A stretch of DNA of 39,756 nucleotides from positions 1 to 39,756 of the forward strand of contig JAFSZJ010000065.1 of assembly GCA_017458965.1 (NCBI GenBank), read 5' to 3'. Of this stretch, positions 3,673 to 28,539 are shown in pieces. Positions within the stretch are counted from its first letter, which is position 1. Each line of letters opens with the position of its first letter. This DNA comes from Kiritimatiellia bacterium. GTDB taxonomy: Bacteria > Verrucomicrobiota > Kiritimatiellia > RFP12 > JAAYLN01. Made by a program: the position numbers and the translations under genes. The notes under the pieces were generated by a model. The model saw only the letters and a program-made list of their open reading frames with translations, did no database searches and was not told the DNA's origin.

Positions 3673-3771
3673 ACTTGATTTTCCAAGGGTGTTTACAGTT
3701 TTCTGACTCGATTTTCCAATGGTGTTTCCGGATTTCTGACTTGATTTACCATGGGTATTTGTGGTTGCCGC
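3673..3771. repeat. Three tandem 33-bp repeats upstream of the ATPase
   Basis: Units begin at 3673, 3706 and 3739, exactly 33 bp apart. Each opens with ACT(T/C)GATTT(T/A)CCA followed by GGT and T-rich sequence. Units 1 and 2 are close copies; unit 3 is conserved mainly over its first 20 bases. They lie 73-171 bp upstream of the ATPase start. The regular spacing, about three helical turns, suits an iteron or operator array bound on one face of the DNA. Function is inferred. Confidence 0.7.
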
Positions 3772-15974: not shown

Positions 15975-18511
15975 TGTGCATCATGCGTCAGCAATTGCGC
16001 ACACCCCTTTCCGCATCCCGCATCGTGCATCACTCATCGTGCATTGTGCATTGTGCATTGTGCATTCTCCTCCTCTCATCCCTCCCCTCCGCCTCGCTTG
16101 CGGCATCCCCTTCCCTGGATGACTGCGCACAGGCGCTGGCCGACGGCATGCACCAGGTCGCCGAGCAGCGACTAGTCCAGTATCTCGCGGCGAACCGCCA
16201 GCTTGCGGCCACGGACGACTACCAAAGCGCGCTCTCGATGCTTTGCCACGCCATAGCCGCGCAGCGACGCCCGCAGGAGGTGCTGGCACTGCTTGAGCGC
16301 AATGCGGACATAACCGACTCAGGCGACGGACGCGTATTCGACTACTGGCGGGCGCAGTCCTTGCTGAGGCTTGGCAGGACCGACGAGGCGCTGACCATAG
16401 CCGACCCAGAGGCCAGAATGGCGGCGAAGACCAACGACGTCGCGGATCTCCGCCTCATGCGCGTCGCCGCTGAGGCGTATGCCGCGCAAGGCACCGCCGA
16501 AGGCGACGCGAAAGCCAACAAGGTTCTGGACACCCTTTTCGAAAGGTCGAAAGCGGCAAGGCTCAACCTGGACGGGGCAAGACTTCTGCGGTCGAGGCTT
16601 CTCGCCCGATCCGGGGACGAAGCCGGAGCCACGGCGATTCTCTCCGCTCTTGCGGCCGATGAAAGCGCGGACAGCCATGTCAGGGCAGCCGCCTGCCAGG
16701 ACCTTGTCGGGATGTCAGGAACGAACTCGCAGTCCGCGGTCAGCGCGGCCCTCGCCATAGAGCGGCTTCCGCTTGGCCGTGATGCCCCGGCTTATCTCAT
16801 ACCATGCGGCCGCATCCTGATCTCGCGATCCGAGACGATACCTGATGGGGCTGCGTTGCTGAAGCGGGCAATACGAATGACTCCGGTATCCCAGGAGGCG
16901 GCGGAGGCGCAGCATGCCCTCTCCTGGGCATGGCTCTCGATAGGATCGAACGAAGTCGCAGAAGCCGAGTTCCGGGCATACCGTGAGACATACGGGGCGA
17001 CATACGGCAACGGCGCATTGGCCAAGTCCGGGCAGGCGCTCGCCCTTCGAGCAATCGGAGGGAACGACGAGGCGGCGACGCTTTTCCAAAAGGCGGCGAA
17101 GGAGACGACGAACGACTTCCTTTCGGCGACATGCACACTGCTTGCGGGCGAGAGCGTCCTAGCCGCCGGAAGGCCACAGTCGGCGGCGGCAATCCTCGAA
17201 AAGGTCTTCGACGTCGCTTGCGAGGCCAACGATGAAGGACTGCGCGTACTGCGCCATGTCCACCCCGGCGCCGCCGACGACGCGCCCCGTCGCATTGGGT
17301 CCCTTGCACGCATACAGGCGGCGGACGCAATGGAGCGTTCGGGCGAGGCCTCGCGTGCCCTCGCCCTCTACGACGAGGTATCCGATGCCTGGAACCATGA
17401 GGGCGACCTTTCGGATCTCGCCATGTACCGGTCTGCGCTGCTCCTTGAACGCACCGCGACCGACGTGGCCGGCGGTGACCAGGCGATCGAAAGATATTCG
17501 CGCCTGGCGGAAGCGACCACGAACGCCCCGCTCCGCTCCCTCGCGGTGCTTGGGCGTGGCCGTTTGCGCTATGCCCGCAGATCCCTTGCCGCGGCGGTGT
17601 CCGACTTCGCCGAGGTCGAGAAGGCCGGCTTCGAATCCGCCGCCGAGGCAAGGCTATGCCGCGTGTACGCCCTCTACGGTCTAGGCAGGGACGAAGATGC
17701 GCTTGCGGCGGCAGAGGACGCAATCCGTTCCGGCGACGGCGCATCGACGCTGCCAGACCTAACACTATGGCTGGGACAGTACCGCTACAACGAAGGGGAC
17801 ATGGACAAGGCCGAGTCCATATTCGCCGATTTCGCCGACCGCTGGCCGGAGGACCCCCGTTCGCCGCATACGCTCCTGTGGGCCGCCAAGGCCGCGCTGT
17901 CTCAGAGCGAGAACCAGAGGGCCGTGGAACGGCTGGCGCTGATCGGCGAACGCTACCCCGATGACCCGGCGCTTCAGGAGGCACGGCTCCTCCAGGGTCG
18001 CGCCCTGTGCAACCTCGCCCGCTTCGAGGATGCCGTGCTGGTGCTCGACGACGCCGTGGCCAAGGCGCCGACCGGGGATTTCGCCGTGCAGACCCTCATA
18101 ATGAAGGGCGACGCCCTGTTCGCGCTTACCGGTTCATCGCGCGCGTCCGTCACAAACGCGCTTTCCGCATACCGTGCCGCAAGGTCCCGTACGGACGCTA
18201 CGCCATCGCAGATGCTCGAGTGCGGCTTCAAGATGGCCCGGTGCATGGAAAGGAGCGGCGACGCGGAAGACGCATGCAACCGCTATTACGAGGACGTAAT
18301 CCTGCCGTACCTGCGTTTCGCCGACGAGGCGTCGCCTGCGGACGAGTCGTTCTTCGAGCAGGCGGCATTCGCCGCCGCGAGGCTTCTGGAGGTACGCGGG
18401 GATGCCGGTGCGGCGCTGGCAATGCTCGGGCATGTCGCGGACGCCGAGGGCAAGGGCGCGGAGCGCGCGTTGCAGGAGATGGCTAGGATAAGGGTCGGAG
18501 GTCGCTTATGA
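15974..18511 (+). CDS. Exported tetratricopeptide-repeat protein
   Basis: 845-residue protein built of many helical hairpins of TPR type, e.g. RVFDYWRAQSLLRLGRTDEA, RLCRVYALYGLGRDEDALAA, LTLWLGQYRYNEGDMDKAES and ARLLQGRALCNLARFEDAV. It resembles periplasmic TPR proteins of Tol/Exb clusters (YbgF/CpoB-like role), but is far longer. The N-terminus carries a signal peptide (CIVHCALCILLLSSLPSASLA) encoded by a 7-bp tandem repeat. The start ATG 15974 overlaps the previous stop (TGATG); ATG 15983 is an alternative. The end overlaps exbB by 4 nt (ATGA). It is probably periplasmic and a scaffold for the energiser encoded next. Confidence 0.8.
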   Translation: MCIMRQQLRTPLSASRIVHHSSCIVHCALCILLLSSLPSASLAASPSLDDCAQALADGMHQVAEQRLVQYLAANRQLAATDDYQSALSMLCHAIAAQRRPQEVLALLERNADITDSGDGRVFDYWRAQSLLRLGRTDEALTIADPEARMAAKTNDVADLRLMRVAAEAYAAQGTAEGDAKANKVLDTLFERSKAARLNLDGARLLRSRLLARSGDEAGATAILSALAADESADSHVRAAACQDLVGMSGTNSQSAVSAALAIERLPLGRDAPAYLIPCGRILISRSETIPDGAALLKRAIRMTPVSQEAAEAQHALSWAWLSIGSNEVAEAEFRAYRETYGATYGNGALAKSGQALALRAIGGNDEAATLFQKAAKETTNDFLSATCTLLAGESVLAAGRPQSAAAILEKVFDVACEANDEGLRVLRHVHPGAADDAPRRIGSLARIQAADAMERSGEASRALALYDEVSDAWNHEGDLSDLAMYRSALLLERTATDVAGGDQAIERYSRLAEATTNAPLRSLAVLGRGRLRYARRSLAAAVSDFAEVEKAGFESAAEARLCRVYALYGLGRDEDALAAAEDAIRSGDGASTLPDLTLWLGQYRYNEGDMDKAESIFADFADRWPEDPRSPHTLLWAAKAALSQSENQRAVERLALIGERYPDDPALQEARLLQGRALCNLARFEDAVLVLDDAVAKAPTGDFAVQTLIMKGDALFALTGSSRASVTNALSAYRAARSRTDATPSQMLECGFKMARCMERSGDAEDACNRYYEDVILPYLRFADEASPADESFFEQAAFAAARLLEVRGDAGAALAMLGHVADAEGKGAERALQEMARIRVGGRL
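16013..16068. repeat. 7-bp tandem repeat (8 units) inside the TPR signal peptide
   Basis: Eight heptamers in exact register: gcatccc, gcatcgt, gcatcac, tcatcgt, three gcattgt and gcattct. They lie within the first 32 codons of the TPR gene and encode its hydrophobic signal-peptide core. Since 7 is not a multiple of 3, gain or loss of one unit would shift the frame. Confidence 0.8.
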
Positions 18512-23820: not shown

Positions 23821-23831
23821 GCACTACCCCT

Positions 23832-23903
23832 CAACCGCTTAACTTCTTAACCTCTTAACCGCATAACCGCTCAACCACCCAACCACCCCACCACCCAACC
23901 ATC
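23832..23903. repeat. 8-bp tandem repeat (9 units), CAACC family
   Basis: Nine octamers in exact register: caaccgct, taacttct, taacctct, taaccgca, taaccgct, two caaccacc, ccaccacc and caaccatc. They fill nearly the whole 84-bp gap between two exported-protein genes and end one base before the ATG at 23905, leaving no room for a Shine-Dalgarno site. Confidence 0.8.
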
Positions 23904-23904
23904 C

Positions 23905-25188
23905 ATGAACTACCCCCGCACACTCCTCGCGGCCGTTGTCGCCGCAACCACCTTCTGCGCGGCATACGCGCAGGAAGCCACCCCCGAAGACGTCGTGGCA
24001 ACCGAGGCCGCCGTCGAGTCCAAGTCCGTCCATGACATGGTGGACGAATACCTGAACGCCAAGGGTTATTCCGAAGGGGAAAACACCAAGGGCGGCAAGC
24101 CGTTCTACGTCGCAGTGGGCTACGGCGTAATTCAGGCGCCGCTCGAAAACCGGAGCTACATCGACTCGCGCGTCAACGCCTACAACAAGGCGATGCTCGA
24201 CGCCAAGGCGAAGATGGCCGAGTATCTTGAAGTCGCCATCAGGACGGAAACAGAGCACGACTATGCCGAGGGCAACTTCGGCGGCAACGAGGAGGCCGAG
24301 GCGGATTCGCTCAGCATAACTTCGAAAATAAAGTCACTAATCAACGCGAAACTAGACAAGGCGCTGCGCGAGGAGGGGCTTGATCCCGACAAGGCCGAGC
24401 GCGAGGCTCGCGAACGCATCGCCAAGAAGCAACTCAATTCCGACTTCTACAAGAAGGTCATCTCAACCGCCGCAAAGGCCGAGATAACCGGAATGCAGGT
24501 CATGTGCGCATTCGAGGGTGTACCTGCCGGCGGGAAGGGGCAGATTGGCGTAGTCGCCATCTGGAGTCCGAAGCTCCAGGCGATGGCGCAGTCGATATCG
24601 CGCGGCACCCGGCTCCCGTCAGGCGTCGGCAAGAAGCCGGTCAAGGAGCAGATTCCATCAGACAACAAGGTACTTCTCTCGACATTCGGCGTGCAGCAGA
24701 AGATCGACGAGAACGGCGACCTTGTGTTAGTCGCGTTCGGCCAGGCTGGAGCCGTGACGGATTCGCCTCAGTCGGCTAACGCCGCCCGCAACAAGGCGAA
24801 GATGCAGGCGATGGCCGCCATCCGCGAATTCGCCGGCGAGAGCGTTGCCGTGACATCCGACGCCGTGAACGCCGAGAACGTGGAGGAGTTCGAGAACGCG
24901 GCGGAGGAATACGAGGACGTTTCAGCCTACTCCCAGAAGATCAAGGCTGCCGCCGAGAAGATGAACATTACAGGAATAGCCACGATAAAGAATTGGGACT
25001 GCAAGCACCCGCTCGCCGCACGCACCGTTTACGGCGCTATCTGCACATGGAGTCCGAAACAGGCCATAAACGCCAAAGACATGAGCAATGCCATGAACGG
25101 CGCGGGAACTCCGCAGCCGCAACCAGTGGTGAACACGACCGACGGTATTCAGAACCGGGGCGCGGACGGGGATGAAGACGCTTTCTGA
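23905..25188 (+). CDS. Exported DUF6844-like protein
   Basis: 427-residue protein with a cleavable signal peptide (LLAAVVAATTFCAAYA, cut before QEAT). Two related halves appear. The first contains YVAVGYGVIQAPLENRSYIDSRVNAYNKAMLDAKAKMAEYL, the second LVLVAFGQAGAVTDSPQSANAARNKAKMQAMAAIREFA. Each looks like the LPP20/DUF6844 pattern of a small strand, then a run of A-x-x-x-A helices. Both halves end with a similar strand, VMCAFEGVPAGGKGQIGVVAIWSPKLQ and ARTVYGAICTWSPKQ. The DUF6844 label is from memory of family appearance. No Shine-Dalgarno is possible: an 8-bp repeat abuts the ATG. It overlaps the next gene by 17 nt. Confidence 0.6.
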   Translation: MNYPRTLLAAVVAATTFCAAYAQEATPEDVVATEAAVESKSVHDMVDEYLNAKGYSEGENTKGGKPFYVAVGYGVIQAPLENRSYIDSRVNAYNKAMLDAKAKMAEYLEVAIRTETEHDYAEGNFGGNEEAEADSLSITSKIKSLINAKLDKALREEGLDPDKAEREARERIAKKQLNSDFYKKVISTAAKAEITGMQVMCAFEGVPAGGKGQIGVVAIWSPKLQAMAQSISRGTRLPSGVGKKPVKEQIPSDNKVLLSTFGVQQKIDENGDLVLVAFGQAGAVTDSPQSANAARNKAKMQAMAAIREFAGESVAVTSDAVNAENVEEFENAAEEYEDVSAYSQKIKAAAEKMNITGIATIKNWDCKHPLAARTVYGAICTWSPKQAINAKDMSNAMNGAGTPQPQPVVNTTDGIQNRGADGDEDAF

Positions 25189-25765
25189 TCGTGTCTGGGC
25201 ACTTGCCGCCCTCATCGCGGCGGTGCTGTCGATCAGCGCCGCCGTTCCCTGCCCCGCCGCCACGGCGGCAGAGGTATTCAAGGCTCACGAGGTCGAAATA
25301 GCCACCAACCGGTGTGTCGCGGTCGGCGGCTATGTTTTCGGCGTGGGGCGGGCGATCTCTCGGCAGGGAGGCGACGCCGTGGGCTTCTCGAAAGCGCGCC
25401 TCCTCGCGCAAGGGAAGATATTGGCATACGCCACAGGCAACGCGCCATGCCCTGAGGGGCTGGAGATCGCCGGTATCGAGACGGTTTTCGAGAGGCGCGA
25501 GGCGCCGGAGCACTACATGGTAGTGGTAGCCGTTATGGAGGCGCAGACTGAAGGTCTGCGCCGACAGGACGCCACAGCACATGCGTGGGAAGGTCTGCGC
25601 CGACAGGACGCCACAGCACATGCGTGGGAAGGTCTGCGCCGACAGGACGCCACAGCAACCGAGCAGGATGCAGCCTGTGCCATAGAGGAGTATGAACCCC
25701 GAGGCTACTGGGAGGAGCGCGGCATCAAAGCAAACGAAACGCTGAGCGAGGCGCAGTTTCTGTGA
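25172..25765 (+). CDS. Small exported protein with REP-derived 13-residue repeats
   Basis: 197-residue protein with a signal peptide (VWALAALIAAVLSISAAVPCPAATA). The first 120 residues resemble the LPP20-like domains of its neighbours: AVGGYVFGVGRAISRQGGDAVGFSKARLLAQGKILAYA, then HYMVVVAVMEAQ. After that come three copies of a 13-residue unit, EGLRRQDATAHAW (the last shortened), encoded by 39-bp tandem DNA repeats. The DNA at the start of this block is a REP hairpin of the same family that flanks the adjacent transposase. The tail YEPRGYWEERGIKANETLSEAQFL resumes normal sequence. The insertion keeps the frame, so the gene may still be functional. Confidence 0.7.
   Translation: MKTLSDRVWALAALIAAVLSISAAVPCPAATAAEVFKAHEVEIATNRCVAVGGYVFGVGRAISRQGGDAVGFSKARLLAQGKILAYATGNAPCPEGLEIAGIETVFERREAPEHYMVVVAVMEAQTEGLRRQDATAHAWEGLRRQDATAHAWEGLRRQDATATEQDAACAIEEYEPRGYWEERGIKANETLSEAQFL
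25541..25568 (+). repeat. REP element 1 (inside a coding gene)
   Basis: Perfect 8-bp stem GCGCAGAC/GTCTGCGC around the loop TGAAG, followed by CGACAGG. Same loop and tail as the REPs flanking the RAYT gene; here it is within the exported protein gene. Confidence 0.75.
25550..25658. repeat. 39-bp tandem repeats (2.8 copies) in coding sequence
   Basis: Identical units begin at 25550, 25589 and 25628, the third cut off at about 31 bp. Each contains the REP right arm and tail plus CGCCACAGC. Being 13 codons long, the repeat preserves the reading frame. Confidence 0.9.
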
Positions 25766-25772
25766 CCACCAT

Positions 25773-25801
25773 CCTGTCGGCGCGGTCCTTCAGACCGCGC
25801 C
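25773..25801 (-). repeat. REP element 2 (left flank of RAYT)
   Basis: Tail CCTGTC, then the perfect 9-bp stem GGCGCGGTC/GACCGCGCC with loop CTTCA. Read on the minus strand this is stem, TGAAG, stem, GACAGG. It ends 18 bp before the RAYT ATG and is inverted relative to REP element 3. Confidence 0.85.
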
Positions 25802-25807
25802 TTGTGG

Positions 25808-25813
25808 CATAAT
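25808..25813 (+). promoter_or_regulatory. -10 box adjacent to RAYT start (leaderless candidate)
   Basis: CATAAT preceded by TGG (extended -10) just after the left REP. Only 6 nt separate it from the ATG at 25820, so the transcript would start at about the ATG. No Shine-Dalgarno site is present. Confidence 0.4.
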
Positions 25814-25819
25814 GTCCGC

Positions 25820-26809
25820 ATGGGCTTTCCGGAATTCAGGGGCGGGCGGCGTTACAAGGGCTACGACTATTCGCGTGGCGCGGTCTTCTTCATTTCCTTC
25901 GGGGTCTCCGGTCGTCCTCCAGTGTTCGGAACTGTCGATGGCGACAAGGTCATCCACAGCGCGGCAGGGCTGGCTGCCTGCGAGACATTGCGCCGCGAGG
26001 CGGAGCGCAACCCAGACATCGCGCTTCACACCTCGGTCGTGATGCCGGACCATGTACACCTGCGTCTATACGTGCGCCCCGGGACCCCAGACCCGATCAA
26101 GGCTGTCGGTGCCTTCGTCGGCAACCTCAAGCGCTGGACCTCCTGGCGCGCGAAGGGGCTGGGCATCACCATCGAATGGGAGCCGAACTACTACGACCGA
26201 CTCTGCCTTTCCCGCGAGATCATAGAGCTTGTCGACAAGTACATAGCGAACAACCCGCTCAAGTGGGCGCTGATGCATGGTCCCAACCCACCGCTCAAGG
26301 TAATCGAGCCCCTCTCCTCGCCGCTGTTGCCGGACTATGAATGGTGGACAGGCGTAGGTGCAGCATCGTGGCTCGACGCCAAACACCGCTTCGCCGCCAT
26401 AAAATTGTCGCGAAGCATTGCTGCGGCCGAGATCCAGGCAGTCGTAGGACGATGCCTGAACGCCGTAAAGAAAGGTTTTGTGCCTATCTCGACCTTTATC
26501 TCCCCGGCGGAGCGGGCGTTGCAGAAGGCTCTCGCCGCACAAGGTGCGCCAATGGCGCGGGTGGTGCCTGACGCACTTGAGACGGTTTACCGCCCCAAGG
26601 AGGACGAACCACCACAGTTCGCGGCAGGGCAACTGCTGCTTTTGTCGCGTGTCGCAGCAGCCAGTATGAGCCGCCATGACGCATGGCACGGGGTGAACGA
26701 CGCCATAGCCGACATGGCGGTGAAGAGTGGCGGAGCTGCGCTCTACGTGGTGCGGGAGAGGCCCGGGGCGCAACTGGAGTGGCGGTTCAGGACGGGAGGC
26801 GAGGTTTGA
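25820..26809 (+). mobile_element. REP-associated tyrosine transposase (RAYT, Y1_Tnp) with extra C-terminal domain
   Basis: 329-residue protein-coding gene. The first 165 residues are a Y1 HUH transposase of the IS200/RAYT type. VVMPDHVHLRLYV holds the metal-binding His-x-His, and NYYDRLCLSREIIELVDKYIANNPLKW holds the catalytic Tyr helix and the usual YIxxNPxxW end. RAYTs bind and cut REP hairpins on single-stranded DNA. Residues about 190-329 are additional: FVPISTFISPAERALQKALA, VPDALETVYRPKEDE, FAAGQLLLLS and RHDAWHGVNDAIADMA. I recognise this tail from some Bacteroidetes RAYTs and it recalls a DprA/SLOG-like Rossmann fold, which is inference. ATG 25820 is chosen from the -10 box at 25808. 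The stop codon lies in the loop of REP element 3. Confidence 0.9.
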
Positions 26810-26826
26810 AGAACCTCGCCGACAGG
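26798..26826 (+). repeat. REP element 3 (right flank of RAYT, holds stop and start codons)
   Basis: Perfect 9-bp stem GGCGAGGTT/AACCTCGCC around the loop TGAAG, then GACAGG. The RAYT stop TGA (26807-26809) forms the loop start, and the likely kinase start TTG (26806-26808) spans the stem-loop junction. Confidence 0.88.
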
Positions 26827-28539
26827 ACGGCCGCCTCAACCCTTACTCTGCCGGGTGAGCGGCGGGCGCCCCCGTTTTCGCCAGGCACGGTGATCGGCGG
26901 AAACCTGCGCATCGTCTCACGGATCGGCGCGGGAGGCATGGGCACGGTATATCTGGCGGTCGATGCAGGGCTGCTGGGAAGGTCGTGCGCCGTGAAGGTG
27001 CTGGACAATGTGGAGGCAGGCGCCGCAAGCCACGGGCGCTTCCTCGCCGAAGCCCGCATCATGGCCTCCCTGCGCCACCCGAACATAGTGCCGGTCTCAC
27101 GCTACGGAACCGATGCCGACACCGGGCTCGACTTTTATGTGATGGACGAGCACCTCCCATCGCGGACGGAGGTGGAGCACATATGCCGGGATGTGCTCCA
27201 TTGTCCAATCCCTGTGACGGATGGCAAGCAATCGCCCTTGACGCTGGCGCGCCTGATCGACGGCGGCAGGACCTTGCCGGAAGCGGCTGTGACCACAATC
27301 GCGCTACAGCTGCTTTCCGCCATGGAGGCGGCACATGCGCTTTCGCCGCCTGTAGTGCACCGCGACATCAAGCCATCCAACATCCTATTCGCAGGTGATG
27401 GACGCGTCGTGCTATCCGACTTCGGAATCGCAAAGCGCATATCCGGGGACGACGGAGCCGCGACGGCGGAATGGACCTCGCCCAACGCCGCTCCTGGCAC
27501 CTGGGCCTATTCGGCGCCGGAGCAACGGCACGGGGGCGTGATCGGCATAGCGACCGACTACTATGCGTACGGCCTTGTGCTTTTCAGGACGCTGACCGGC
27601 GGCATGCCCAACCACGCCGCAGCGTTGCCGACGGACATAGCGCCAAAGGTCTCGAAGCACTGGACCAGGCTCTTCTCAGGTCTCCTAGCTGAAGATCCTG
27701 GCAAGCGCCTTGCCGACGCCGCGCAAGTGCGCAAGACATTGGAGAAGATCGTGGCGGACATAGGCCTGCGCGGGCAACGCAGGAACTACCTGCGCGTGGC
27801 GGCTGGCATCGCCATTGTCGCAGTCCTGGCGACGGCGGTGGGGCGCGGCCTGAAGGATCGTACCGACAGTACGCCACAGCCAACGCAGGACGAGGAACGC
27901 ACCGACAGGGCGCCACAGCCCACGCAGGATGAAGACAGCACAATTACGAAGGAGAAAGACCCGCCATTCGACCACAGGGGATGGTGCCGGCAATATGCCG
28001 AATCACTCCGGGAAACGCTTGATAAGGCGCTTGCCGCGCCCAAGCCCGACGATGCAGGCAGGATCACGGTCCGCGAGGGGCAGACACTCCTTTCAGGGGA
28101 CATCCAGGAAGTCGACAATGTCGTGGAGATAGTTCTCGACGGCGGCGAGATGCGTTTCTCCCCATCAGCAGAGTATCTGCGCGACATAGTTGCCAGATGC
28201 GAGGACTTCGCCGTAAACGCGGCGGATGGGGAGAAGTCGCCTGAAGACCTGTTGCCCACAATGCGCGTGCACTTCTACAAGCCAATATCCGTAACGGAGC
28301 GCGGCGGGCACCTCGACACTGCCGACGGCGAAATAACAGCCCTGCTATCCGGCCCGGTGCGCCGCGCCGATGGCGTGGACAAGGCGACGCTTAAGGTTTT
28401 CGGTTTTTCCTCGATCATCATCGACCGAGCCGAACTCGATCCCGGACTGCGGATAACCGGCGCGGGTCAGATAGCCGATATCGGCTTTGGCGGCGCATTG
28501 CGGAACCGACGCTGGTTCGACGACGAAAACCCGCTATAG
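26806..28539 (+). CDS. Membrane-anchored Ser/Thr protein kinase (PknB type)
   Basis: 577-residue protein if the TTG at 26806 is the start. The kinase domain is complete: GAGGMG loop (about 41-46), catalytic Lys in CAVKVL (64), HRDIKPSN (HRD 185-187), DFG (205-207) and APE (237-239). It is followed by one transmembrane helix (about 328-346) and a 230-residue extracytoplasmic region of unknown fold. GGGAGG (26794-26799) lies 6 nt before the TTG, which overlaps the RAYT stop as TTGA. An in-frame ATG at 26683 would add 41 residues of RAYT-overlapping, atypical sequence. The linker after the membrane helix (RTDSTPQPTQDEE, RTDRAPQPTQDED) is encoded by REP-derived 39-bp repeats. The gene converges on the FHA gene; the stops share the palindrome CTATAG. 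Confidence 0.9.
   Translation: MKNLADRTAASTLTLPGERRAPPFSPGTVIGGNLRIVSRIGAGGMGTVYLAVDAGLLGRSCAVKVLDNVEAGAASHGRFLAEARIMASLRHPNIVPVSRYGTDADTGLDFYVMDEHLPSRTEVEHICRDVLHCPIPVTDGKQSPLTLARLIDGGRTLPEAAVTTIALQLLSAMEAAHALSPPVVHRDIKPSNILFAGDGRVVLSDFGIAKRISGDDGAATAEWTSPNAAPGTWAYSAPEQRHGGVIGIATDYYAYGLVLFRTLTGGMPNHAAALPTDIAPKVSKHWTRLFSGLLAEDPGKRLADAAQVRKTLEKIVADIGLRGQRRNYLRVAAGIAIVAVLATAVGRGLKDRTDSTPQPTQDEERTDRAPQPTQDEDSTITKEKDPPFDHRGWCRQYAESLRETLDKALAAPKPDDAGRITVREGQTLLSGDIQEVDNVVEIVLDGGEMRFSPSAEYLRDIVARCEDFAVNAADGEKSPEDLLPTMRVHFYKPISVTERGGHLDTADGEITALLSGPVRRADGVDKATLKVFGFSSIIIDRAELDPGLRITGAGQIADIGFGGALRNRRWFDDENPL
27842..27869 (+). repeat. REP element 4 (degenerate, inside the kinase gene)
   Basis: GGCGCGGCC, loop TGAAG, GATCGTACC, then GACAG. 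The left arm matches REP element 2 at 8 of 9 positions. The right arm has decayed but still gives 5 Watson-Crick and 2 wobble pairs. It encodes part of the linker after the transmembrane helix. Confidence 0.6.
27862..27939. repeat. Two 39-bp tandem repeats in the kinase linker
   Basis: Units 27862-27900 and 27901-27939 agree at 32 of 39 positions. Each contains a CGACAG.ACGCCACAGC-like core shared (at most one mismatch) with the 39-bp repeats at 25550-25658. They encode two 13-residue Pro/Gln/Asp-rich units. Confidence 0.8.

Follow-up and report, generated by a model that had tools for sequence, protein, structure and literature searches.

The closest described systems are the REP units linked to a RAYT (REP-associated tyrosine transposase), whose classical REPs carry a GTAG or GTGG head (Nunvar 2010, PMC2817692; Quentin 2018, PMC6006769), and the CGTC REPs, for which TGTC and CCTC are listed as variants of the CGTC tag (Di Nocera 2013, PMC3733652). 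The 2013 survey of the CGTC REPs found no linked transposase and left the mover open, and it listed none of them for the PVC group (PMC3733652). The presence of REPs inside genes is already established: the Rickettsia palindromes, which sit in frame within coding sequences, are counted among the CGTC REPs, and Opitutus terrae has intragenic REPs, some of them in DNA repair genes (PMC3733652). A search of the open-access literature found no description of elements of this kind from Kiritimatiellae.

The window analysed here, a stretch of 39,756 nucleotides from a Kiritimatiellia bacterium, carries a RAYT gene located between a predicted exported-protein gene and a protein kinase gene, with REP copies around the RAYT gene and inside both neighbours. 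We consider it highly probable that a RAYT-associated REP was inserted in frame and that its 3' half, together with the adjoining flank, was later tandemly duplicated. What is new in comparison with the systems above is that a transposase is linked to the REP, that the copies in housekeeping genes use a nearly uniform reading frame, and that an insert has given rise to a repeat protein. All the evidence comes from MAGs, with one genome for the species of the window.

Table 1 Features of the window around the RAYT gene (positions in the window).
Feature	Position	Strand	Support or remark
Predicted exported-protein gene	25172..25765	+	ORF, orthologues elsewhere in the order
REP copy 1	25540..25571	+	58 bits, E 3.8e-13
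Exported-gene array	25550..25657	+	TRF
REP copy 2	25770..25801	-	Inverted, directly upstream of the RAYT gene
RAYT gene	25802..26809	+	Motifs, sub-cut-off family scores
REP copy 3, closing the RAYT unit	26798..26829	+	
Ser/Thr protein kinase gene	26806..28539	+	Pfam PF00069, E 2.7e-31
Degenerate REP, kinase linker	27842..27873	+	27.4 bits, E 1.7e-5
Kinase array	27854..27929	+	TRF

The RAYT gene has two start candidates, TTG 25802 or ATG 25820. The alignment of 27 sequences showed that H84-V-H86 (the HuH motif), Y147, N151 and P152 are invariant; the protein has the HuH motif and the catalytic tyrosine followed by N-P that are expected of a RAYT. A search of the PDB sequences gave weak transposase matches alone (2xm3 and 2xma, E 0.07). 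The family scores were 30 bits for a cut-off of 80 with NCBIfam NF047646 (REP_Tyr_transpos) and 20.3 bits for a cut-off of 23 with Pfam PF01797 (Y1_Tnp); judged by these below-cut-off values, the window protein is a distant relative. By RAYT match, the nearest named relatives of the window genome are MAGs of Kiritimatiellae and Verrucomicrobia, many of them from ruminants. G053 and G124 represent two further families of the order; their RAYTs are 72% and 71% identical to that of the window and are also flanked by inverted REPs of the same type, so that the gene is enclosed as in a REPtron in the three genomes. In three bacterial families, an intragenic REP family with a CGTC-related foot is found next to a RAYT gene of its own. 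Since the RAYT gene is enclosed by inverted REPs in the window and likewise in its relatives, the repeat of the exported-protein gene is a copy of the palindrome of the neighbouring RAYT. With an intragenic REP lying beside its RAYT gene, it becomes possible to test how mobile DNA inserts stretches of peptide into proteins. In G005, which belongs to the same family as the window genome, the RAYT closest to that of the window shares 42% identity with it, and a REP was looked for beside this gene with none found; the mover may have been lost, may be unassembled or may act in trans.

The loop region of REP copy 3 (TTTGA) contains the RAYT stop codon, TGA 26807-26809. This stop is overlapped by TTG 26806-26808, the best-placed start of the kinase gene, with GGAGG 7 nt upstream. 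The kinase ORF is open from 26683, and the N-termini of the orthologues make the TTG at 26806 the likelier start. REP copy 3 may in this way supply the start codon of the kinase and couple its translation.

The REP family was then described from its copies. On the tagged strand the element reads CGTCCTGTC-hairpin with TGTC as the foot, the stem is of 9 bp and the loop of 5 nt, and the tail is nearly invariant among the copies. Being a hairpin of 20-40 nt with a conserved foot tag and dispersed copies, it corresponds to a REP element. The covariance model at E <= 0.1, a threshold at which the weaker matches are uncertain, gave 36 matches in G005, 7 in the window genome (G000) and 7 in G053, and an exact pattern search recovered 21 G005 copies. 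In about 11 copies of this genome (L126, L127, L128, L131, L133, L141, L142, L174, L175, L177 and L183), the REP is adjoined by another hairpin, typically GGCGGGGCTTCGCGCCCCGC, and the composite of about 60 nt is translated as ..QGAGREAPP..; at L117, L123, L137, L139 and L140 of the same genome the neighbour of the REP is instead T[GAT]CCA[CT]GGCGG. The hairpin may be only a part of what moves, or the mobile units may be of several types.

In common with RAYT-REP units (REPtrons) and BIMEs, a HuH tyrosine transposase gene lies here between inverted REPs, the hairpin is tagged by a 5' foot, and single copies and inverted pairs are dispersed in the genome. Unlike these extragenic repeats, the copies are mostly intragenic and have no GTAG/GTGG head; the GTAG REP superfamily was rejected on the head, the foot TGTC being within CGTCCTGTC. 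The TGTC foot, the 9-bp stem, the 5-nt loop (8-9 bp and 4-5 nt are the values for the CGTC REPs) and the existence of intragenic members are shared with the CGTC REPs, but the stem begins with G-C and not A-T pairs, the bases after it are mostly [TA]GC with no CCA tail, and a transposase is linked; the CGTC REP superfamily was rejected on the stem start and the tail. As for the Rickettsia palindromic elements (RPE), we have in-frame palindromes in unrelated protein genes, including housekeeping ones. In contrast to RPE, which were compared by their description in PMC3733652, the host belongs to another phylum (Kiritimatiellae), a cognate transposase gene can be recognised, and in one genome almost every intragenic copy is in a single frame. 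The REPs of Opitutus terrae also lie inside genes in a related phylum (Verrucomicrobia; PMC3733652), but they belong to the GTAG superfamily, differ in sequence and are often dimers. It is conceivable, although we hold it as rather doubtful, that the elements form a RAYT-linked REP lineage living mainly inside genes, with a sequence shaped by translation in one frame and the same dozen residues added to many housekeeping proteins, and that their TGTC foot designates the missing transposase-linked relative of the CGTC REPs, perhaps of RPE.

The reading frame was analysed on the 30 G005 copies with the highest scan scores (above 36), 25 of which are inside genes and 5 outside, a distribution that departs from the mainly extragenic location of classical REPs. 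Because a bacterial genome is mostly coding, the intragenic location is not in itself an enrichment and the signal is the frame. One antisense frame is used by 22 of the 25 intragenic copies, compared to 1 in 5 open frames (p 5e-13), and another antisense frame by the three copies in genes for a glgB-like enzyme, a GspE-like ATPase and a DnaQ-like exonuclease. The main-frame peptide, with the tag CGTCCTGTC first, is (S/T)RPVG[AE][VD]LQ[TS]xP, for example RPVGAVLQTAP. A Pfam or NCBIfam match was obtained for the host genes of 19 of the 22 main-frame copies, the other three being supported by an open frame and codon usage. The G005 host genes code for TatD, CysRS, MutL, FtsK, DnaX, a PreP peptidase, ABC transporters, an L,D-transpeptidase, an FAD oxidoreductase, a glycosyltransferase and others, and many have domains on either side of the REP or a domain spanning it. 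Five G005 REPs exhibit the loop TAAAG, which gives a TAG stop in the main frame, and none of the five uses this frame (Fisher p 4e-4). The insert present in the CysRS of G005 is absent from all 10 aligned orthologues; G004, a congener of G005, has a CysRS 83% identical and without the insert. REPs in the same frame were found in a copper ATPase and a hybrid histidine kinase of G000, and an in-frame REP in GltB of G053.

In the mechanism that we propose, the RAYT associated with these repeats would spread the hairpin with its GACAGGACG tail into and between genes. The frame statistics and the empty CysRS site are consistent with a wide insertion after which only the readable copies would persist in genes, the survivors being those that keep the host gene open with a harmless peptide. 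The frame bias could be due in part to a target-site preference linked to codon phase rather than to selection. Transposition, like the translation of the inserts and their effects, is inferred.

The exported-protein gene, whose frame is kept open by both the REP and the 39-bp array, codes for a product of 197 aa with an apparent signal peptide. REP copy 1 is composed of GGCGCAGAC-TGAAG-GTCTGCGCC-GACAGGACG, that is, a perfect 9-bp stem, the loop TGAAG and the tail GACAGGACG, and gives the peptide ..QTEGLRRQD... The initial annotation had reported a REP followed by 2.8 identical 39-bp units in this gene, and TRF found the same array (period 39, 2.8 copies, 100% matches, score 216), with a slight correction of its limits: REP and array together extend over 25540-25657, the array being of 108 bp. 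The array starts inside the loop of REP copy 1 and overlaps the 3' half of the REP, the 39-bp unit consisting of this 3' half (hairpin and tail) and some 17 bp of flanking sequence, and the translation across the repeat is QTEGLRRQDATAHAWEGLRRQDATAHAWEGLRRQDATA. It gives a concrete example of an insert that has become a new segment of tandem repeats in a protein. With 100% identity of the units in a single MAG, a recent expansion is plausible, and the copy number could have been miscounted in the assembly. That the array as a whole is an artefact of assembly is hardly credible: it comes from one MAG, 63% complete, but its 108 bp fall below the usual length of short reads and lie within a contig of 39.7 kb, and a REP is present at the same site in the separately assembled G004.

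The G004 orthologue has a REP hairpin in the same place and frame and without the array, and the number of 39-bp copies is thus not conserved between genera. The stems at this shared site differ, GCGAGGTT in G000 against GCGCAGAC in G004, and the REP common to both is either ancestral or the result of two insertions. Orthologues outside the family showed no REP at the site and a variable linker of 44-57 residues; over the orthologues the linker ranges from 32 aa, in G004, to 57 aa, with 53 aa in G000 including the repeats. The length in G000, within the range outside the family and longer than in G004, and the strong uniformity of the reading frame would both be expected if the REP-encoded peptide or the repeat itself were under selection, be it for the length of the linker, for binding or the like. 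We judge such a selection very improbable, because the proteins that contain the peptide are unrelated and share no role, and because close orthologues, such as those of CysRS, lack it.

The kinase array lies 2.3 kb from the exported-gene array. Kinase repeats of equal length with a shared core had been noted at first, and this was confirmed: TRF gave a period of 39 with 1.9 copies and 86% matches, and the core is present in both genes. The array starts within the degenerate REP, translated as GRGLKDRTDST, and the translation across the repeat is GRGLKDRTDSTPQPTQDEERTDRAPQPTQDE. As also noted, the repeat is read in different frames, EGLRRQDATAHAW in the exported protein and DRTDSTPQPTQDE in the kinase. 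The exported and kinase units are identical in register at 27/39 positions, while the best 39-mer elsewhere in the window scores 23, and both arrays have CCACAGC in common past the REP tail. Since the in-register match extends beyond the REP, the two arrays would probably have a single shared origin, one array having been copied between neighbouring genes; the possible alternative is that a REP with its flank was copied and then duplicated separately in each. With up to 1 mismatch, the 17-bp core occurs 5 times, all in the exported and kinase genes, and the proposed search in other genes of the genome found none (MAG 63% complete); with up to 3 mismatches, 6 matches were found in the window compared to 0.26 expected from shuffles.

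The initial annotation went further and proposed an expansion of the element at the DNA level, with 39 bp as its preferred unit; we weighed this as two independent expansions, one in each gene. Both arrays have indeed a period of 39 and each starts in a REP. The REP-tail arrays found inside genes have, however, units of 15, 21, 24, 39, 39 and 42 bp, all multiples of 3 as coding requires and with no single length. The 21-bp unit, with 2.7 copies, is in GltB of G053, in the same REP reading frame as in the window (EGPREQDGHAREQDG), and the G005 arrays are in an HAD-like gene (24 bp), the gene at L134 (15 bp) and a DnaQ-like gene (42 bp). Together with the in-register match of the two window arrays beyond the REP, which points to common ancestry, and the lack of further core copies in the incomplete genome, these lengths largely refute the preference, to which we give very little credit. 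The other part of the proposal stands, namely a REP with its tail tandemly expanded while the frame survives, with similar in-frame cases elsewhere.

The arrays could also be ordinary minisatellites in disordered linkers, overlapping a REP by chance. The kinase linker is repetitive and variable among the orthologues too, with repeats showing no relation to the REP, such as PEAVVPAAPEAETAVDAA, present twice in G022, and the exported-protein linker varies in length as described above. Such an origin seems unlikely to us, since both arrays begin inside a REP and include its 3' half, and since similar arrays occur on REPs in the GltB, DnaQ-like, HAD-like and other genes. Arrays were present at 9 of 57 REP sites, the window pair being excluded, compared to a background of 7% (p 0.018). 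The enrichment is modest, and with so weak an effect we refrain from calling the REPs strong hot spots of expansion. In the duplication model that we favour, a few REP tails would seed a tandem array, by slippage or unequal recombination at the hairpin, and the array would be retained if its unit is a multiple of 3.

In G033 (C12, 12722-14645), the exported-protein and kinase genes are convergent neighbours; in the window (25172-28539), the kinase gene is flipped with respect to G033 and the RAYT gene lies in between. The two gene orders suggest a rearrangement at REPs. The window contains further tandem repeats: one of 33 bp x 2.7 with 81% matches at 3673-3760, a short array of the 7-bp units GCATCGT/CATTGTG at 16013-16066, and the 8-bp units AACCTCTT/CAACCACC at 23826-23905, just upstream of a DUF6844 gene.
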